Below are positions 12,576-49,801 of a DNA stretch of 60,677 nt, in pieces (position 1 is the stretch's first letter; each line of letters opens with the position of its first letter). The stretch lies in NCBI GenBank assembly GCA_016783675.1, contig JADHWE010000007.1:1-60677 (forward strand), written 5' to 3'. Origin of the DNA: Kiritimatiellia bacterium (GTDB lineage: Bacteria > Verrucomicrobiota > Kiritimatiellia > UBA8416 > JABMPJ01). Both the position numbers and the translations under genes were made by a program. A model generated the notes under the pieces. The model worked only from the letters and a program-made list of their open reading frames with translations. It was not told where the DNA came from and searched no databases.

Positions 12576-14066
12576 TCACGACCTATAGTTCGGCGCTTCC
12601 TTCATGATCTTCACATCATGCGGGTGCGACTCACTCAGGCCTGCCATGCTGACGCGTACGAACTCGCCGTTGGACTGCAGTTCGTCGATCGTCCGGCAAC
12701 CGCAGTACCCCATGGCGGAGCGTACGCCCCCGCAGAACTGGGTCATCACCTTCTCAACGTGTCCCGCATAGGGCACGATGCCTTCGATGCCCTGGGGAAC
12801 GAGCTCGTCGTCGCTGGTCTGGGTCTGGCTGTAACGTTCGCGACTACCCTCCGATTCGCGCATGGCGGCCAGGCTTCCCATGCCGCGGTAGACCACGTAC
12901 TGGCGCCCTTGGTGAATGATCTTCTCGCCCGGACTCTGGTGCGTGCCGGCAAGGATCGAGCCGAGCATGACGGTGTCTGCACCGGCGACGATGGCTTTCG
13001 GCACATCGCCGGAGTGGCGGATGCCGCCATCGGCAATCACCGGGATGCTGCCTTCCAGGGCCGCCGCACAGTGATAAACGGCCGAGACCTGGGGCACGCC
13101 CACGCCGCAGACCACGCGCGTGGTGCAGATGGAGCCGGGACCGATACCAACTTTCACGGCATGGGCGCCGGCATCGCGTAGGGCCAGTGCGCCGGCGGCG
13201 GTTCCCACGTTACCGGCAATCACGTCGATGTCGGGATAGTGCTTTGTGAGCCAGCGTACCATGTCGATGATGCCGACGGAGTGGCCGTGGGCGCTATCGA
13301 GCACAATGATGTCAACATGCGCATCGGCCAGCCTCTCGGCCCGCTCGTGGTTGCCGCCACTGACCGCCGCCGCTACGCGCAGGCGGTACTCATCATCGCG
13401 GTTGTACATCGGCTGCACGTCTTCGATCAGGTTCTTCACATCGGAGAAGGCATAGAGACCTACCAGCTTACCCTTGTCGAGCAGCGGAAGCTTGCCGACC
13501 TTGTTCTTCATCATGATGTCGTAGGCTTCCTGCAGCGAGGTGCCCTGCGGAGCGGAGATCATATCGGTGCTCATGACCGAGTCGACTCGTGCGTTGGCGT
13601 CGCGCGCGAACTTGGTGTCCTTGGATGTCAGGATCCCGGTCAGCGCGTCATCGTCGTTGAGGATCGGGAATCCGCTGAATCCGTACCCGTGTTCGCGGCG
13701 CATCGCATCCACCTTGTCCAGCGTATCTGAGGCGCGCAGAACCACCGGGTCGATAATCAAGCCGTGGAGGTGGCGCTTGACCATGTCGACTTGTTCGGCC
13801 TGCACCTCTTCAGGCAGGTTTTTGTGGATAACCCCGATGCCGCCGAGCATGGCCATGGCGATCGCCATCTCGGATTCCGTCACCGTATCCATCGCCGCAC
13901 TGATGAACGGGATATTGGCGCGGATGCGTGACGTCAGCCGTGTCTCAACTAAGGCGTCGTCGGGCAGAAAATCGGCGTAGCGCGTGACCAGTGCGACGTC
14001 GTCAAACGTCAGGCCTTCAAAGGGGAACTGGGCGATAAACGCATCAAGATGTTTGTTTCGGCTCAT
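12576..14066 (-). CDS. guaB: Inosine-5'-monophosphate dehydrogenase
   Basis: Oxidises IMP to XMP with NAD+, the committed step of GMP synthesis. The 496-aa protein has the TIM-barrel substrate site ([19 protein letters not shown]), a CBS pair in the middle (about residues 95-210), the catalytic loop [18 protein letters not shown] with the active-site Cys, and the flap region [11 protein letters not shown] 14066 has an excellent GGAGG site; the frame upstream to 14165 is unlikely to be translated. It is convergent with the mla operon. Confidence 0.95.
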
Positions 14067-29045: not shown

Positions 29046-29103
29046 TGGTGGCAGGGCTAGGATTCGAACCTAGGAAGGCGTAGCCAGCAGATTTACAGTC
29101 TGC
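29046..29103 (-). tRNA. tRNA-Tyr(GTA) 3' fragment, probable att site
   Basis: Read on the minus strand, this is the 3' part of a tyrosine tRNA. It has the anticodon stem-loop GCAGA-CTGTAAA-TCTGC (anticodon GTA at 29094-29096), a class II variable arm, and the T arm CTAGG-TTCGAAT-CCTAG. The acceptor strand CCCTGCC, discriminator A and CCA complete it. The matching 5' half (acceptor GGCAGGG and D arm) is absent; identity is lost just before the anticodon stem. This is what remains when an element integrates in the 3' half of a tRNA and rebuilds the gene at its other end. Confidence 0.85.
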
Positions 29104-31186: not shown

Positions 31187-31498
31187 TTACTTCTGAGAGC
31201 TCCGGTTCAGCAGTTTCTCTCCTTCCCTCGCCAGGCGTGAAATGCGCAGGGGTTCTCTCGGGCACTTGAGGCGCATCGTTCCGTTGCTGATATGCATCGA
31301 ACAATTGCTCTTTCCGAAGTCATACTTGTTTACGTACGCATTGCCTCTCACCTTCATGGAGAGATTGCCGGCGTCTGCACATTGAAGGATCAGTGTGAAG
31401 TTGCGGTCTTCGATGGGGAGACCATCCGGTTGGGATGGTTGATTCGCGCATCCAGCGCAGATTGTCAGAATGATCATCGCATAGATTAGATATCGCAT
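31187..31498 (-). CDS. Small predicted lipoprotein
   Basis: A 103-aa protein of unknown function with a lipoprotein signal peptide, MRYLIYAMIILTICAGC, Cys 17 being the lipidation site. The mature part has three further Cys residues. The ATG at 31498 has a GAGGTGA site 6 bases before it; an in-frame GTG lies at 31507. It follows the membrane coiled-coil gene with almost no spacing, as the third gene of the Orc1/Cdc6-like operon. Confidence 0.7.
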   Translation of the reverse strand: MRYLIYAMIILTICAGCANQPSQPDGLPIEDRNFTLILQCADAGNLSMKVRGNAYVNKYDFGKSNCSMHISNGTMRLKCPREPLRISRLAREGEKLLNRSSQK

Positions 31499-31508
31499 TC
31501 TTTTCACC

Positions 31509-32651
31509 TCATGGTTGCTCTTTCTTGAGCTTGAGACGCGTCAGGCCAAGCAAACGCTTCTCGGCCCGGAGCAACCGCTTCAGATCATCCCTCTGCTGCT
31601 CTTCGGTTGCCACGGCAGCTGAGATGTGGTGCGAGGTGCTGTCTCTGTCTTCGCGCGAACAGGCTTTCGCTGCTTGGTCCAGGGCTTTCCGGAGCGACTG
31701 ATGTCGTCGCTCACAGCGTTCGGCCAGCTGAACGATGGCGTGCTCCTGTACGATCTTACGGCGCTCCAAGAGGATCTGCTCCTTGAGAGCTTCGCGGTCC
31801 TTTTCGTCCAAGTCGCTGCAGTAGCCGCTGAGTTCCTGTAGCTCATGCCAGTCGAAGTTGCGCAGTCTACGATCCAAGACTCGAATTCTGTCGATCACTT
31901 GGACGACATCGTCGGCACGGTGCGCAATGCCTGACAGCGCCTCGGAGATTGCTCTCCAGTTCGGAGAGCCGCGTTTCAACTCTTTCAGCAGCGCTTCCAG
32001 GTTGTGTTGAAGGCGAGCCGTCTCCCTTTGGGCTTGGGGCGCCAAGCGCTTCCTTATGCGCTTCTCCACCTTCACTTCGCGCTGTTCATGTTTCCGGTCG
32101 AGTCCGGCAATGAATGACGAGTCGGACGCCGCGGTTTCACCGTGTCCCCGCCCTTTCGGCCAGAGAGCAACGCCTACCTGCCATACACAGATGAGGAAGA
32201 TGATGGCGGACAGAAGGTTGATGAATGGGACACGACTGGCCACTGCCTGTAGCATGGATGGGCTCATCGCCCGCACAAACAGATAGAGCAGGACGTACGT
32301 GAGCGGCACCGCCAGCTTCCAGGCAACATGGACACGCAGCAGGACATGGAGAACGAGAAAGCCCACCAGGAGCAAAGCAATGAAGACGGCGATTGGGCCT
32401 GCCTGCCGTAGGTTCCATCCGAATTGCTGCTGAGCGAGAGTCAGCGAGATCCCCAGCGCCAGTCCGATGGCCGTGGCCATGACCTTCCCGGGACGACCGG
32501 TGAATCGCCGGGTGAAAACAACATGGGCCAACGCAATGAAAATTGAACAGTAGATAGCAAGATCGAAAAACCCGGAATACCTGTCGTAGGTAGCCGAGAT
32601 GTCCCACCATGCGAATGGGTCCAGTATTCCGGCAAACGGATCACGGGTCAC
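31509..32651 (-). CDS. Polytopic membrane protein with C-terminal coiled coil
   Basis: A 380-aa protein of unrecognised family. About five TM helices occupy residues 25-165 (FDLAIYCSIFIALAHVVF, AVFIALLLVGFLVLHVLL, INLLSAIIFLICVWQVGVAL). They are followed by a long charged helical region (about 190-380) rich in Arg, Glu and Gln. The start is a GTG whose last bases overlap the stop of the upstream ATPase (CTGTGACC), so the two proteins are translationally coupled, and the pair probably works as a complex. The frame upstream to 32711 only overlaps the ATPase gene. Confidence 0.8.
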   Translation of the reverse strand: MTRDPFAGILDPFAWWDISATYDRYSGFFDLAIYCSIFIALAHVVFTRRFTGRPGKVMATAIGLALGISLTLAQQQFGWNLRQAGPIAVFIALLLVGFLVLHVLLRVHVAWKLAVPLTYVLLYLFVRAMSPSMLQAVASRVPFINLLSAIIFLICVWQVGVALWPKGRGHGETAASDSSFIAGLDRKHEQREVKVEKRIRKRLAPQAQRETARLQHNLEALLKELKRGSPNWRAISEALSGIAHRADDVVQVIDRIRVLDRRLRNFDWHELQELSGYCSDLDEKDREALKEQILLERRKIVQEHAIVQLAERCERRHQSLRKALDQAAKACSREDRDSTSHHISAAVATEEQQRDDLKRLLRAEKRLLGLTRLKLKKEQP

Positions 32652-33901
32652 AGGGGCATCACCCCTGGTGGCATGCTGAACGTCTCCCGAATAGTCCGCA
32701 CCAGATTGCACATGATCGCGCGAGAGAATGATGTGCGGATTTCCTTTGTTCGTCCGTAACGGCCGCGTGATACCGTTCGGGCACGGATGAACCCATACAT
32801 ATCGAGCTCGTACAGTAGGTCACTGAAAGCGCGTTGGGAGATGGGACGCAGTCCAGTCTCGGAACAGAACCGCTCGTAGACAAGATAGGCGGGCCCAGTG
32901 TGCAGTGCTCCCGTGCGTGGCTTGCCGGTCAGGGCCGCGTATAGCGCGGCTTGGAGCTGCTTTGGACTGCTACGGATCATGTCGATGTACTTGTCGCGTT
33001 CGATTTCTTCATAGGCCCGATCGACAAGCTCCAGTGTGATAGCGGTGCGGTCCTGCTCTGCCAGATCCGCCGAGCGCCGCAAAAGGTTGACCGCCTTGCG
33101 TGCATCACCATGTTGCTGCGAAGCCAGGGCGGCGATCTTGTCGATTACGCCCTCCTCGATGCGGGAGGGCTGTAGAGCTTTCTTGACGCGCATGGTCAGG
33201 ATTCTCTTGAGACTATCTGCATCGTATGACTTGAAACTGAGTTCGCGGACCTTCAAGCAACTCTTCACCCGGGGATCAAGATTCTCCATCCAATCCAGCC
33301 GGTTCGAGGTAAAGATCAGGACCAGACGCGCGCCGATGCGCTTGGGTAAGCGCTTGACCAGAAACTGGTAGAAGGTGTTGAAGTCAGTGCGAACGTTGTC
33401 TGCTTCATCAACGAAGACGGCCAAGTAGCCGTCCGATGATTTCAGCTTCGCCTCCACCCGCCCCATGATCTCCTCGAGGCTAACGCCCTTTCGGTAGCGT
33501 TTAGAGGCGTCGAGGAGGCACGCCAGGTTGTTCAGGGCACGGAAGCACGGAGTTGGGCAGCACAGATCCAGGTGGACCTGCTGGAAGGGGATTCCCTTGC
33601 CAGCGCAGAACTTCTCGATCTGTGCGAGGAACCATCGGATGGTAATAGTCTTGCCGGTACCCGTGCTGCCGATGACTGACAGGTGAGTAGGGTGACCATT
33701 TCGGAATACAGGCGAGAAGTGGTTACTGATGGTCCGGATCTCATGCGTCCGTACGTTCGTATTGAATATCTCGGTCAGGACTTCGAACTGCCTTTCCTGA
33801 GGCAACTGTTCGTCGTCCAGGTATTCATGACTGATGACGATAGGGTTCTCAGCCGCATCCTCAATTTCAGCCCATATCCGTTCTTGAATGTTCGTCTGCA
33901 T
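32648..33901 (-). CDS. Orc1/Cdc6-like AAA+ ATPase with winged-helix domain
   Basis: A 417-aa ATPase with the architecture of archaeal/eukaryotic Orc1/Cdc6 initiators. It has a pre-Walker segment LPQERQFEVLTEIF, Walker A GSTGTGKT (78-85), Walker B VFVDEADN (162-169) and sensor 1 IFTSN (196-200). Sensor 2 is GDARKAVNLLRRS (265-277), and a C-terminal winged helix (VYERFCSETGLRPISQRAFSD) follows. Such proteins are rare in bacteria, where DnaA normally fills this role. The coupling to a membrane protein and the defence-island setting suggest a sensor or remodeller rather than a replication initiator. That role is inference. Confidence 0.85.
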   Translation of the reverse strand: MQTNIQERIWAEIEDAAENPIVISHEYLDDEQLPQERQFEVLTEIFNTNVRTHEIRTISNHFSPVFRNGHPTHLSVIGSTGTGKTITIRWFLAQIEKFCAGKGIPFQQVHLDLCCPTPCFRALNNLACLLDASKRYRKGVSLEEIMGRVEAKLKSSDGYLAVFVDEADNVRTDFNTFYQFLVKRLPKRIGARLVLIFTSNRLDWMENLDPRVKSCLKVRELSFKSYDADSLKRILTMRVKKALQPSRIEEGVIDKIAALASQQHGDARKAVNLLRRSADLAEQDRTAITLELVDRAYEEIERDKYIDMIRSSPKQLQAALYAALTGKPRTGALHTGPAYLVYERFCSETGLRPISQRAFSDLLYELDMYGFIRARTVSRGRYGRTKEIRTSFSRAIMCNLVRTIRETFSMPPGVMPL

Positions 33902-34202
33902 TGGAAAATCACACTCCAGACGAACGGTACATATAAGTAGTACTTAAACCTTTCTCACCACTCGCGAGTAGCAGTCCTGGGCGACGCCTTGCGGCATATC
34001 ACGATCAGATAAGATGCCGGAGTCACCGGCAGGGCGGTGGACAGCAGTGGATACGGGACCGGCTCGAACTCGCACAGTGGGCAAATGTGTCGGGGGTGGC
34101 ACTGTCCGGTAAGGTCTGCGCTGGGGCCATTGACGCACTCCAATGCTGCCAAGTGCCGTGAGTTATGGTAGACGTTGAGCTTTACGGGAGTGTGAGAGGC
34201 CA
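33902..34202. other. Divergent intergenic region with a weak Cys-containing frame
   Basis: About 300 bases separate the Orc1/Cdc6-like gene from the divergent STAND gene and should contain both promoters. A minus-strand frame ending at 33955 encodes a Cys/His segment (CHPRHICPLCEFEPVPYP) that could be a small zinc-binding protein. It has no ATG outside the STAND gene and no ribosome site, so I do not call it a gene. Confidence 0.4.
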
Positions 34203-37200
34203 ATGGCGAATGCGAGCGTAATCCTGAGTGTACTGCTACTGCCCCAAGCGAAGAAGCTTGTGGAAGGTGTCGTTCAGTCATACCTCTCCAGCCAGTCAAC
34301 CGGCTGGGTTCGACGGCAGCTAGTTCGGATCGCCAGCCGGCGGATCAAAACCCGGGCAATCGCGCGTCTCGAGGGCTTCCTGAATGCTGAGATGTCCAAG
34401 GAGGAGGCCGACCTGTTCGTCCATGAGTTCGAGGCCATCATCGGAGGCGTCAATCTTACGGGAGCCATGCTGGCCGAGCATGATTTCAGTGCCGAGGCCG
34501 TCGTGGCTGAGATGTGGTCAATTCGGCCCCCAGATATTGAGGTATTCCATCGGCGGCTCGACTCAAGACTCAAGACTGTGTTGGGGGCTACTGTCGAGAC
34601 ACTGACGCAGCTGATTCCGGAACTGCAGCAATGGGAGCGGGTCGCCTGGGGAAGACTCTTTGCCAAGCTGAAAGAGCTGCGGCAGGGGCAGAAGGACCAG
34701 CTCGCGCTGCTGAACCAGATACATGCGATAGTCCGTCTGCTGCACGCTGACACGGAGAAGTACCCACCGCCGAAGCCTGTGATAGCAGCTCCCAGCCCTT
34801 ACCTCATAAGGCGCGTAAGCGCCCGCCGACACGAACTCGGCAGCATGCATGGTTTCTTGGAGAAGGGAGAGGACCTGCTGACTGTCCTTGCAGCGCACAA
34901 GCGGATTGTGCTGCTTGCGGACGCGGGCATGGGGAAATCGTGGGAACTCCGACGTATTGCTCATGCCATGGCTGAGTCCAGTAATCCACACTATCCGCTG
35001 TGGGATCCTGAGTTCAAGAGCTACAACCCCTCCGATTCACTCGCTGCACGAATCGACAGATCCTGGCCGTTTTGGGATGCCATCTCAGACGCGCGCCGCG
35101 TCTTGATTCTTGATGGGCTTGACGAGGTCGGCCAGGACAACGTCGAAGCCACGATCACACGGTTCAAGGAGTTCTGTGACGCGCAGCCGGAGTCAGCGGT
35201 TCTCGTGTCGTGCCGAGCTAAGGTATTCACACCGTTCGCTGACTATCTGAGCGGCTTCTCGGCGTTCTTCCTTCGCCATCTGGATGGAAAGAGCATCGAG
35301 TTGTACGTTCGCGATGCTATGGGGGACCGATGGGATGACTTCAGTGAACAGGCGTCAGCACTGAAGCTATGGGACTTGCTCCATGTACCGTTCTACTTGG
35401 CCCTGGCAACAGAGGTCTACCAGCAGAAGGGCTCACTGCCAGCGCGACGGGCGGCGTTCTTCTCAGAACTCATTGAATCGCGGATTGCCAAGGACGCGGG
35501 GAGAAGCGTTGATGCCGGAGTGCTACGGCTGCGGCAGAAGCAAGTGATGGATGCCCTGAGCCAACTGGCGCTGGGCATGGAGATGCTCTGTACGAACGAG
35601 ATCACGGACGATGCATTTGTTCGCTTGGTTCCGAATCGGGAGAGCCGGGACGTTCTCAATATGAGCGGCATCTGGAACAGTGTGGCCAGAAACGGTGGAG
35701 TCTACTGGCGGTTCGAACATAACAGTATCCAGGAGGCGCTGGCTGGCCGATTGCTGTCCACTCTAGACTTCGACAAGATCAAGTACTGCGTTGGGGTGCC
35801 CCCTGACCGCTCGAACGTCAACCCGTCCTTCGGGAATGCTGCCTCGTTCATGCTGGAGGAAGCTGCCAACGCTGATGTACTGCAATGGTTTGTCGAGGCA
35901 GCGCCAGAGATCGCTATCCAGTCTGAAAGCACGCTCATGCCGATTGAGCAGCGAGTGAGTCTTGTAAAGGCGATTCTGGCTGATCACGAAAGGCGCGGCG
36001 CTACTGTCGTGTGGGGCAAATTCAGCACACACGACATGGCTCGTTTTGCAGACACACCTGAGCTGTTGGCATGGTTACTGGATGAGGCCGAGCGCGCAGA
36101 GGACCTCAGGCATTTCGCCAGTCTGATACGCGTGGCCCAGCACGTAACCGTACCTGCCGATATGGTTGATCGTGCTAAGGGGTTCTACCTGTCCCTATTC
36201 AGAGATTCCGAGCGGCCACTATGGCTGAGGCGAGGGGCTGTAACGGCTCTGTCTCTCTCTGGTTTGGGCGACAAGAGCGTTGTCGGCGAGATCGTGAAGG
36301 AAGCGCAAGCCAACGGGGATTCTGAACTGCTTGCGGAAGCGTACCGGCTAATAAGGACATCGAAGTGTGTTGATGATTTCATTGACGAGCTTCTTGCCGG
36401 CATCGACGCCGCGCTGGGACAGGGCCGCCTACTGAACGAACGCACAGAAATCCGAGAGGCGCTGGCTGAAACGACTAGTGAGGCGACTCTCGTCCGGATC
36501 TGTGACCACTTTGCCGAGAAGCCGGATCGGCTGAACGAGATCTTTCTCTCGCATGACTTCGGTGATTTCGTCAGTAGCGCGGTTGGCATGTACCGGAAGG
36601 AACCCAGCGAAGGCATCTTTCGCGGGGTGATCAGGCTCTTCTCCTCTCTCAGCAGGCATTACCACCATGAGTTCATACCTTCCGTTGCACAGTTCTTCAT
36701 TGAGTTAGACATGCGCCAAGCCGCTATTGACGCACTCCTGGCGCTGGAAGAGAAGGACGAGTTATGTGTTGGCGAGGCCGTGGTTGCATTGGCAACACGT
36801 GCAGAACTGCAGGTTCTCGTGGGTCGATACCAGCAAGGCGATCTCGACAAGACGATTCTCGACGGCATCTTGCACCGAATGGCGCCTGGTGAGCTCCTGG
36901 ACTGGCTGAGAAATCGCCTCGAGACTGTTGACCCAGAGGCATTTCGTCAGGAACCGAGGCCGCAATGTTCCATTCTGACGCCGCAACAGGACTTTGACCT
37001 TCTCTTTGATCAGGAAGAGTACGTCCGGCAAGTCGAGTTCGTTTTCGAACAGGCCGGTACTGACATGTTGGACTGGGATACGATTCATGACCTGCGATGG
37101 CGTCCCAGGAACGACGTAACCGTGAGCGGGATGGTCGCGGACGACATATCCCATCAGGCGGCAAGGAACCCAGTAAACCGAGGCGCCTTCATTGAGGAGG

Positions 37201-38324
37201 CATGCAGACACTGGCGAACATGGTCAGTGGGCACCGCGGCCAGAGTGATTGCCGAAACCGAAGGAATCAATCTCACTGCGACTCAGCGAGAGGTCTTCGA
37301 GAAGTGGATCAAGGATTCGATCCCGCAGACCAGATTTGCGGGGGAGAAGAACGACAGTGGTGGCACGAACTACCAGGTACGGGCTCGCCTCATAGTGTGC
37401 GTAGCTGTCCTTCTGGATCTGCCGCTATCGAAAGAGGAATGTGGGCAATTCCTGCAATTCCCTTTCGACGCTCTGCCTGAGCGTGTGCGAAAACAGGTGG
37501 TGGCGTATCTGTCTCGCCGCATAGGGAAAGCTGAACTGCGCAGTCAGATCGTTCGGGTCATTGAGACCCGAAGCGCGGATGAGTCTGTTTTGGCGGAGAG
37601 GTACCGTTACTGTGCAGAGGCAAAGATGAATGAGGTGAAGCCACCTGCAATCCGTGACCTGGTTGATGAGGGCCTTCCCCATAACGTCCGTCTCGCAGCG
37701 CTGCGTGCCCTGGAAGCACTGCCCGACGGACAGGATGCAATCATCCCTCTCCTGCCAGGGATGCAAGAGGACCTGCGTCTGATTGCACTGGATTCTCTGT
37801 CACGGACGAGGAACCAGCATGCTACTGATTACTTAGAGAAGCTATTCCATGATGGAGAAGGCGAGATCAGGGATCAAGCGGCGCATCTTCTCGTGCGCTA
37901 TGAGAACCAGGATGCGCTTCGCTTCTATGTAGAGAGAGTCATTGAGCAGGGCCGCCTACCGTATGAAGACCGCATTGACAGATCCTCGGTCTTCACGGCT
38001 CTTGTTGCGACGGACTCGGTGGCGCCTCTTCTTGATCTGCTAAGGGCACACTACGAAGACAGGATTCAGTCCAAAGATCCGACGCTGGATATTGATGGCA
38101 TCGTGAGGGGCGCTCTGACGCGGATTGCCCAGCAATCGGATGAAGCCTACACGGTGGTCAGGGGTGCAGTGGAAGCCTTCCTGGCAGAGAATCGCGCTCT
38201 GTGGAGCACCGGATTCTTGCACGCCTTCCTCGACGACCTGGACCGGCAACACTGGATGGCGAAGTCGAAACGTCGCCCTCTAGAGGAAGTCGTCGAGTTT
38301 CTGCAGCGTATCAGTGCCGGGTGA
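34203..38324 (+). CDS. NACHT/STAND NTPase with repeat-rich C-terminus (NLR-like)
   Basis: A 1373-aa signal-transducing NTPase. An N-terminal helical domain (1-190) has no recognised effector motif. The NACHT module has Walker A ADAGMGKS (239-246), Walker B LILDGLDEV (302-310) and VLVSCRAKVF as the sensor-type motif, then the winged-helix-like region HVPFYLALATEVYQQKG. The C-terminal 850 residues are helical repeats, HEAT-like near residues 1100-1290 (AALRALEALPDGQDA, IALDSLSRTRNQHATDYLEK). Such proteins (Avs-type and related) detect phage components with the repeat domain. The end overlaps the convergent DUF429 gene by 14 bases. Confidence 0.82.
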   Translation: MANASVILSVLLLPQAKKLVEGVVQSYLSSQSTGWVRRQLVRIASRRIKTRAIARLEGFLNAEMSKEEADLFVHEFEAIIGGVNLTGAMLAEHDFSAEAVVAEMWSIRPPDIEVFHRRLDSRLKTVLGATVETLTQLIPELQQWERVAWGRLFAKLKELRQGQKDQLALLNQIHAIVRLLHADTEKYPPPKPVIAAPSPYLIRRVSARRHELGSMHGFLEKGEDLLTVLAAHKRIVLLADAGMGKSWELRRIAHAMAESSNPHYPLWDPEFKSYNPSDSLAARIDRSWPFWDAISDARRVLILDGLDEVGQDNVEATITRFKEFCDAQPESAVLVSCRAKVFTPFADYLSGFSAFFLRHLDGKSIELYVRDAMGDRWDDFSEQASALKLWDLLHVPFYLALATEVYQQKGSLPARRAAFFSELIESRIAKDAGRSVDAGVLRLRQKQVMDALSQLALGMEMLCTNEITDDAFVRLVPNRESRDVLNMSGIWNSVARNGGVYWRFEHNSIQEALAGRLLSTLDFDKIKYCVGVPPDRSNVNPSFGNAASFMLEEAANADVLQWFVEAAPEIAIQSESTLMPIEQRVSLVKAILADHERRGATVVWGKFSTHDMARFADTPELLAWLLDEAERAEDLRHFASLIRVAQHVTVPADMVDRAKGFYLSLFRDSERPLWLRRGAVTALSLSGLGDKSVVGEIVKEAQANGDSELLAEAYRLIRTSKCVDDFIDELLAGIDAALGQGRLLNERTEIREALAETTSEATLVRICDHFAEKPDRLNEIFLSHDFGDFVSSAVGMYRKEPSEGIFRGVIRLFSSLSRHYHHEFIPSVAQFFIELDMRQAAIDALLALEEKDELCVGEAVVALATRAELQVLVGRYQQGDLDKTILDGILHRMAPGELLDWLRNRLETVDPEAFRQEPRPQCSILTPQQDFDLLFDQEEYVRQVEFVFEQAGTDMLDWDTIHDLRWRPRNDVTVSGMVADDISHQAARNPVNRGAFIEEACRHWRTWSVGTAARVIAETEGINLTATQREVFEKWIKDSIPQTRFAGEKNDSGGTNYQVRARLIVCVAVLLDLPLSKEECGQFLQFPFDALPERVRKQVVAYLSRRIGKAELRSQIVRVIETRSADESVLAERYRYCAEAKMNEVKPPAIRDLVDEGLPHNVRLAALRALEALPDGQDAIIPLLPGMQEDLRLIALDSLSRTRNQHATDYLEKLFHDGEGEIRDQAAHLLVRYENQDALRFYVERVIEQGRLPYEDRIDRSSVFTALVATDSVAPLLDLLRAHYEDRIQSKDPTLDIDGIVRGALTRIAQQSDEAYTVVRGAVEAFLAENRALWSTGFLHAFLDDLDRQHWMAKSKRRPLEEVVEFLQRISAG

Positions 38325-48212: not shown

Positions 48213-48830
48213 TTACCCGGACCAATAGGTCCGAAGTATCAGCGCAGCAGCTATGAAGACAGCTTGCGCCAGGCATCCGAGGAAAAAGTACCTCCACGCC
48301 TCATTCACTTTCGTCCCCTTAAGGTTGGCTATGTCCACGTTGTTCTTGTACGTGACCAGCTTATCGGCTGCCAGATCGCGCTGCATCTCTTTGGGGGTCT
48401 TGCTAGTTCCGGAAATCCAACCATCTTCGTCCAGTCGACACAGCGGACGTGCACGCAGGGAGACCAGAGAATTCCAAGTGGCCAAGAAGAACAAGCCCAA
48501 AGAAAGCAGAAAAACAACAACCATCGCAAACCAACACCAGAAGTGGCTCCAGGAGTGTGGACTCATCCCGGGCGCGATCAGCGTAAAGCCCAGAGGCGCT
48601 AGCGCCAGCAGGAGGCCGGATGCCCCCAGCATAGCCGATCCCTTTGCTGTCCAGCTATCGAAACGTGATACTTCATCCGCATTGAGTTGGGTCAGCTCCG
48701 CAGCCACCTGTTCAAGCACAGCGCTGTCGGACGGCAGCTTGTCTACGTACTGTTCGGCACTCCGCACCTCCGGCGTCTCCATTTCACTACCGCTGAAGAC
48801 TTCCTTCTCAAGGATATCCACTATCTTCAT
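48213..48830 (-). CDS. Three-TM membrane protein, SLATT/PycTM-like
   Basis: A 205-aa protein. A soluble N-terminal region carries RFDSWTAKGSAML immediately before a TM pair (LGASGLLLALAPLGFTLIA and FAMVVVFLLSLGLFFLATW). A charged helical stretch and a last TM (FLGCLAQAVFIAAALIL) follow. The D-x(3)-K-A/G motif ahead of the first TM resembles SLATT and Pycsar TM effectors, which disrupt membranes. Here it is coupled (4-base overlap) to a RiPP ligase gene, so it might equally be an exporter, immunity or toxin component. Family assignment is tentative. Confidence 0.55.
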   Translation of the reverse strand: MKIVDILEKEVFSGSEMETPEVRSAEQYVDKLPSDSAVLEQVAAELTQLNADEVSRFDSWTAKGSAMLGASGLLLALAPLGFTLIAPGMSPHSWSHFWCWFAMVVVFLLSLGLFFLATWNSLVSLRARPLCRLDEDGWISGTSKTPKEMQRDLAADKLVTYKNNVDIANLKGTKVNEAWRYFFLGCLAQAVFIAAALILRTYWSG

Positions 48831-49801
48831 CGTGTGCCCCCGTCCCGGAGAAACTCGACCATGTATTGAATCATTCCGTTATTGAGGTCCAGATCCAGCC
48901 ACGCCCACTGGCCATTCGGATTGTTCTCGAGAAACACGTACGCGCCGTCGGGGGTTTTCACGAAATCAAATGCCGAGAACTTCAAGCCATAGTGATCCAT
49001 AAACAGAAAGCACTTATCGAGGAGATCCTTGGGAACTGTTGTCGTGAAGTACTTTGCATCCTGACACAGGTTCCGGCGCCAGTCATGTTTCGTCGATTCT
49101 TCGTGCTGGGAGTCGACTCCCACGACAAATGCACGCCGCCCAATGACTGTAATCCGCAGCTCATACTGCTTCTGCACGTAGTCCTGCAGCAGGCACGGGG
49201 CGTAGCTGACCTGATGGAGATTGTCCATGTCTTGAGGAGTCAGAACTGAAGTGTAGATGAGCTCCACGTTTCCGTCGGGGTACTCAACGCTTCCCCCTGT
49301 CAGAGGCTTGACGATCTTCTCGCCCGGCGTCTCATCGCAAAAGGCTGCTGCCCTCTCAGGGCTGTTCGTGACCAGTGTTCGCGGGACTGTGAAGCCGAGC
49401 GACGCTGCGATCTGCAGCTGGTAGAGCTTATCATTGGCGCGACGGATGGATTCCGGCCGACTAACCCAGAAGGCATGCTCAAGAAGACGGTATGTGCCGC
49501 GAAGAAAGGCTCTACTCTCTTCCAGTGCGAAGGTCCGAGCTTCCGGCTGTTGGACATCCCCGCTGATTGACGGCGGGTTGGGCTTCCGGTACCAAACCAC
49601 TGAAATCTCGGAGAACTCCATCTCCCTGCCGTCTACGGACAGCATGCCAGACGAACCGCCGGTGCCACAGCTTACACTCAACTGGACGGATTGCGGGTAC
49701 TGGTCGGTATTCAACCGCATGAAATCAACATGTGCATCCTTCAGTCCCGTGGCAACGAGATCAGCGGTTGCATCGTCCGTACCCGTTACGATCAGAAGCA
49801 T
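48827..49801 (-). CDS. MvdD-type ATP-grasp RiPP ligase (graspetide synthetase)
   Basis: A 324-aa ATP-grasp enzyme of the group that forms ester or amide cross-links between side chains of a ribosomal peptide. Hallmarks are VVWYRKP in the N-terminal domain, the ATP-binding segment GEKIVKPLTGGS, YELRITVIGRRAFVVGVDSQ, and the C-terminal ENNPNGQWAWLD with metal-binding residues. Four small genes with matching precursor features lie directly upstream, the last ending 3 bases before this ATG. One ligase is present, in contrast to the MvdC/MvdD pair of microviridin loci. Confidence 0.88.
   Translation of the reverse strand: MLLIVTGTDDATADLVATGLKDAHVDFMRLNTDQYPQSVQLSVSCGTGGSSGMLSVDGREMEFSEISVVWYRKPNPPSISGDVQQPEARTFALEESRAFLRGTYRLLEHAFWVSRPESIRRANDKLYQLQIAASLGFTVPRTLVTNSPERAAAFCDETPGEKIVKPLTGGSVEYPDGNVELIYTSVLTPQDMDNLHQVSYAPCLLQDYVQKQYELRITVIGRRAFVVGVDSQHEESTKHDWRRNLCQDAKYFTTTVPKDLLDKCFLFMDHYGLKFSAFDFVKTPDGAYVFLENNPNGQWAWLDLDLNNGMIQYMVEFLRDGGTR

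Follow-up and report, generated by a model that had tools for sequence, protein, structure and literature searches.

An Orc1/Cdc6-family ATPase gene overlapping a membrane protein gene in probable integrative elements of Kiritimatiellia bacteria

A stretch of 60,677 nucleotides from a Kiritimatiellia bacterium (hereafter the window) encodes an AAA+ ATPase that, judged by its sequence, is a true full-length Orc1/Cdc6 protein on an island of a bacterial chromosome. Its gene (orc) and an overlapping membrane protein gene probably belong to the backbone of tRNA-targeting integrative elements that are replicated from an archaeal-type origin by a membrane-tethered initiator, and the findings suggest that mobile elements of one family are copied in bacterial hosts by means of archaeal signals. 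Replication in bacteria is started by DnaA or by plasmid Rep proteins, and Orc1/Cdc6 with origins built of origin recognition boxes (ORBs) is regarded as a mark of archaea.

With TIGR02928, the model for replication initiation proteins of the orc1/cdc6 family, the ATPase (Table 1) reaches 237.6 bits, above the curated cut-off of 181.3, with separate matches to Cdc6_C (2.8e-19) and Cdc6_lid (1.1e-16), and these family scores are far above chance. The top PDB chain is 2qby_A (Sulfolobus Cdc6-1; E 7.5e-55), in an alignment that reaches the wing of the winged helix, a domain also aligned with 2v1u_A. Walker A (GSTGTGKT), Walker B (FVDEAD), sensor-1 (Asn200), sensor-2 (HGDAR) and winged-helix (SRGRYGRTKEI) motifs were all found, and none of the seven orc copies described below deviates at the P-loop, acidic, sensor Asn or sensor-2 Arg residues. 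Both the Cdc6-type lid and the C-terminal winged-helix DNA-binding domain that mark Orc1/Cdc6 initiators are present. A transposition ATPase of the TniB/DnaC type was also considered and was rejected, the protein being a true Orc1/Cdc6.

Table 1. Features of the window, and loci of the diverged Orc1/Cdc6-like and HerA genes
Feature	Location	Strand	Basis
tRNA-Tyr 3' fragment adjoining the integrase gene	29050..29103	-	anticodon arm GCAGACTGTAAATCTGC and T-arm, no D-arm
Tyrosine recombinase (integrase), 510 aa	29239..30771	+	PF00589 6.6e-17
Small lipoprotein, 106 aa	31187..31507	-	lipobox ICAGC; diverged homologue at L025
Membrane protein, about 5 TM helices and a long helical tail (predicted), 380 aa	31509..32651	-	homologues after orc; AF2 helical model
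Orc1/Cdc6-family AAA+ ATPase with C-terminal winged helix, 417 aa	32648..33901	-	TIGR02928, Cdc6_C, Cdc6_lid, 2qby_A
TATA-like box (AGAAAGGTTTAAGTAC), 39 nt upstream of the start of orc	33937..33955	-	alignment with relatives
NACHT/HEAT-repeat protein	34203..38324	+	PF05729 8.9e-6; weak match to antiphage EruA/HyoA-type models
Diverged orc and HerA loci	L101:8846-11835, L102:7636-11776, L103:10215-14067, L104:8561-11643		

The stop codon of orc and the start codon of the membrane protein gene overlap as GTGA (32651-32648, minus strand). The listed open reading frame of the membrane protein begins at 32711; the start adopted here is the GTG at 32651, which the relatives conserve. About five hydrophobic helices are predicted within residues 18-163, followed by a helical tail that extends to residue 378 (AF2, mean pLDDT 65.8, low-to-medium confidence). 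The protein matched no Pfam or NCBIfam family, and a fold search with its model returned generic helical bundles only, none at E < 0.001. Homologues with 41-73% identity and an invariant DRRLRNFDW block are encoded immediately 3' of orc at five other loci. The lipoprotein gene is probably real, because a diverged homologue, recognised by its lipobox and shared Cys pattern, occupies the same position at the nearest related locus (L025); it was not found at the other four membrane-gene loci. An earlier note on this DNA, made from its letters alone, had described the complete set of Walker, sensor and winged-helix elements, the GTGA coupling, a five-helix membrane protein with a helical tail and a lipoprotein gene following it, and this description is upheld, for the ATPase by its motifs, TIGR02928 and 2qby_A and for the membrane protein at the level of prediction.

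Close homologues of orc (51-72% identity) were found in only three of 345 genomes of the class, as seven copies: two in the window's own genome (G000), namely the window copy and one on contig C47, one in G227 and four in G333. The linkage of the ATPase gene to the membrane gene, which the earlier note had left in question, is conserved in six of the seven, the membrane gene following orc directly with frames that overlap or almost touch; the exception is the copy on the small contig C47, which has no membrane gene and lies beside a DDE transposase. The pair recurs, and the three-gene set as that note had it was found only in the window and at L025. Locus L025 (element A of G333) encodes an ATPase and a membrane protein 72% and 73% identical to those of the window, in the order orc, membrane protein, lipoprotein and then an opposed tyrosine integrase gene beside a tRNA-Tyr 3' fragment, of which the window layout is the mirror image. 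Between the two loci, nonsynonymous divergence (pN 0.18 for each of orc and the membrane gene) stands against saturated synonymous sites (pS 0.76 and 0.79, respectively), and both genes are thus under purifying selection.

A gene for a HerA/DUF87 ATPase, mostly preceded by a partner gene of 185-197 aa, always lies within a few kb of orc and the membrane gene in G333 and G227; several elements also encode ArdC, a MoxR-type AAA protein with a DUF2201 protein, and SprT, and the cargo is variable. No HerA gene was found in the window or in the 72%-complete G000 genome. Two adjacent caspase-like proteins, recognised by eye from the sequence, are encoded as element cargo in region C of G333 (contig C1, about 1555667-1559038). 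There is also a second, diverged set, in which a gene for an Orc1/Cdc6-like protein of about 368 aa (122-137 bits against TIGR02928, below the cut-off) adjoins a gene for a 38%-identical HerA and no membrane gene is present, at four loci in G534, G329 (two) and G139. Archaeal-looking boxes were noted at these loci, and integrase-like genes at three of the four. No relatives were found among phage records or among viral contigs, the latter searched with the ATPase and membrane protein sequences, with alignments of each and with HerA. In a plasmid search all 60 sampled orc matches were archaeal, none above 35% identity; the membrane protein had no match there and no counterpart in the phage-like or viral collections searched. 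A scan of genome contigs gave one weak AAA match, in Saprospiraceae.

The hosts were examined for bacterial and archaeal features. G000 encodes a bacterial DnaA (2.9e-68), and the left flank of the window encodes LpxB, EF-G and PSD1/PSCyt2 proteins. The carrier genomes G227 and G333 have bacterial 16S rRNA, in which a perfect site for the Pla46 probe suggests the PVC superphylum, and no TFIIB was found in any of the three carrier genomes. Thus, a true Orc1/Cdc6 sits in a bacterium that also has DnaA. In a tree of 20 sequences, a check that the earlier note had proposed, the seven close orc copies form one group (100/100) on a long branch among archaeal Orc1/Cdc6 sequences; being midpoint-rooted and drawn from a small archaeal sample, this tree shows neither donor nor direction of transfer.

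A tyrosine integrase gene beside a tRNA 3' fragment, the arrangement by which integrative elements are recognised, was found in the window and at elements A and E of G333, and the window integrase is 34-37% identical to those adjoining these two elements. The tRNA-Tyr fragment of the window is likely an attachment site at the left end of the island; neither the window nor its genome, which is 72% complete, yielded a second tRNA copy marking the far end, and no free circular form of an excised element was seen. On contig C2 of G333, a perfect 43-bp repeat of a tRNA 3' end (about 496953-496995 and 511644-511686), one copy of which adjoins the integrase gene of element E, appears to represent tandem attachment sites. 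At L025 a second tRNA 3' fragment (Leu-like, about 12930-12990) between the lipoprotein and integrase genes possibly derives from a nested insertion. The NACHT gene is probably cargo; neither it nor the other defence genes of the window have homologues at other orc loci. Positions 38311-60677 of the window contain further defence-like genes (NERD, an AAA_13 ATPase, a T5orf172-helicase, an Eco57I-type methylase, ThiF with Prok-E2_A, and HEPN_LA2681), and also, at 48830-49801, a gene for a protein with an MvdD pre-ATP-grasp domain, a possible peptide-modifying enzyme.

Five relatives, four in G333 and one in G227, have an inverted pair of 24-nt sites (YTCCASYGGAARYYYACTCNCRCY) upstream of orc with an AT-rich stretch between them, at -555/-400 (L025), -236/-110, -322/-112, -831/-639 and -236/-110 relative to the orc start. 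These sites match the core of the archaeal ORB (TCCASTGGAAA) and agree at the core with a published ORB, CTTCCAGTGGAAACGAAAGGGGT (PMC4153887); the G-string end of archaeal ORBs is missing from them, with ACTCNCRC in its place. Their layout likewise agrees with that of archaeal orc-adjacent origins, in which inverted ORBs flank an AT-rich element (PMC3528665). With up to two mismatches allowed, the motif has seven matches in G333 (8.7 Mb) and two in G227 (6.3 Mb), all at orc loci, and its reversed control has none, counts that are not fully independent since the motif, like the promoter pattern below, had been noticed in the elements beforehand; the eighth G333 site has three mismatches. In the window no ORB-like site was found within four mismatches in 60.7 kb, no inverted repeat in the orc promoter region is origin-like, and in G000 no site was found within two mismatches. 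Only 302 bp separate the window orc from the start of the NACHT gene, which occupies the stretch where L025 has its ORB pair; the window origin may have been displaced.

The window and the five relatives share a TATA-like box at 38-39 nt upstream of orc, which in the relatives reads AAAG(A/T)TTAAATAG. The pattern CGAAANNTTTAWWWA, modelled on an archaeal BRE plus TATA (for comparison, RRAAA and WTTTAAAW in PMC6640164), has 14 matches in G333 (8.7 Mb), of which 11 are no more than 13 kb away from one of its four orc loci, and the associated P of 2.5e-19 overstates independence because the pattern was first noticed in these elements. The strict pattern is absent from G000.

The initiator family, the gene linkage, the layout of integrase and attachment site, the sites in relatives and the clustering of BRE/TATA boxes in the elements can be read from the sequences themselves, and a course of events consistent with them can be proposed. 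The element would be excised as a circle, on which Orc1/Cdc6 would bind the ORB pair, open the AT-rich stretch and start replication; the membrane protein would tether initiator and element DNA to the membrane, and the HerA-type ATPase of the relatives, not found in the window, would move or segregate the DNA. Tethering is suggested by predicted helices, from a model of modest confidence with no fold matches. The earlier note's proposal that the module controls island replication fits, since orc is part of integrative islands, and the membrane tethering that it also envisaged would depend on those same predicted helices. The largest gap in the replication reading is helicase loading, which is unexplained because no MCM was recognised in the three host genomes, where the only matches were weak and came from a model that also matches E. 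coli. The window copy retains integrase, orc, membrane and lipoprotein genes with no ORB pair nearby; having lost that pair, it may either act on sites elsewhere or be a partly decayed element.

The lack of a recognisable MCM leaves room for a role in segregation or transfer, in which Orc1/Cdc6 would mark the inverted sites as a centromere-like or transfer-origin-like tag, the membrane protein would anchor it and HerA would pump the DNA, no helicase being loaded. The constant partners in relatives, namely the membrane protein and, together with a partner of its own of 197 aa, a DNA translocase resembling HerA/CedD, are in keeping with such a role, as is the recurrence of the diverged orc-HerA set in three other genomes. 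We nevertheless consider it unlikely, given that a replication origin requires just such a complete set of initiator domains and just such a layout, with inverted ORBs enclosing AT-rich DNA next to orc; nor are Orc1/Cdc6 proteins known to have a role in segregation. Less likely still is that the window operon is a stranded leftover with no present function, its origin displaced by the NACHT gene. The missing ORB pair and HerA, the position of the NACHT gene, which starts 302 bp upstream and takes the place of the pair found at -400/-555 in the closest relative, and the second G000 copy (C47), which lies by a transposase with no membrane gene downstream, would all suit a decayed remnant, but the overlapping genes are intact and under strong purifying selection relative to L025, and the TATA-like box and integrase have been retained.

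The earlier note had also proposed a membrane-tethered AAA+ module that senses replicating foreign DNA, and the company of NACHT, restriction and HEPN genes around the window copy might suggest a detector of invading replicons. This proposal finds no support and seems very improbable: for the ATPase PADLOC gave nothing beyond short matches to the P-loop (mad8, HerA), and for the membrane protein and lipoprotein no match at all, so that no meaningful match to a defence model was obtained; the three-gene set has no toxin or nuclease domain; the defence neighbours are absent at other orc loci; and orc behaves as a backbone gene, with four copies in one genome amid differing cargo, accompanied in relatives by ORB sites instead.

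Beyond the preferred reading, that of integrative elements replicated by their own initiator, lies a more tentative one, which we hold possible and rather doubtful: that integrative elements with Orc1/Cdc6, inverted ORBs and BRE/TATA boxes persist in bacterial chromosomes as inter-domain replicons, either moving between archaea and bacteria or running an archaeal-type initiator on a bacterial replisome. If an element family in bacterial chromosomes has this initiator, these origin sites and promoters of archaeal appearance, then bacteria can keep an archaeal system for starting replication, and the loading of a bacterial helicase or the crossing of domains could be tested. A further outcome is a link between Orc1/Cdc6 and an uncharacterised family of membrane proteins.

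Known systems share parts of this arrangement. Archaeal Orc1/Cdc6 replicons (Sulfolobus oriC1/Cdc6-1; haloarchaeal chromosomes and plasmids) likewise have a full-length Orc1/Cdc6, the nearest archaeal protein compared being about 33% identical to the bacterial ATPase, and BRE/TATA-like promoters and, as in the five relatives, sites with the ORB core that are inverted on either side of an AT-rich stretch beside orc; here, in contrast, the setting is a bacterial chromosome, the sites have no G-string, no MCM or TFIIB was found in the hosts, the window copy has no sites, and orc overlaps a membrane gene. The integrative and conjugative elements of actinomycetes (AICEs) resemble these elements in having a tRNA-targeting tyrosine integrase and their own replication initiator, and their FtsK/HerA-type DNA translocase is matched in the G333 and G227 elements and missing from the window and G000; they differ in that the initiator here is an archaeal-type Orc1/Cdc6 instead of a bacterial Rep, with membrane and lipoprotein partners. 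Archaeal islands commonly carry integrases, HerA-like ATPases and Orc/Cdc6-related proteins (PMC4158269), and archaeal pT26-2-type and other integrated plasmids share these components, their hosts being archaea. Among the open-access papers searched, none describes bacterial elements in which Orc1/Cdc6 is linked to ORBs. The parts are of known kinds, and what is new is their combination in bacteria.
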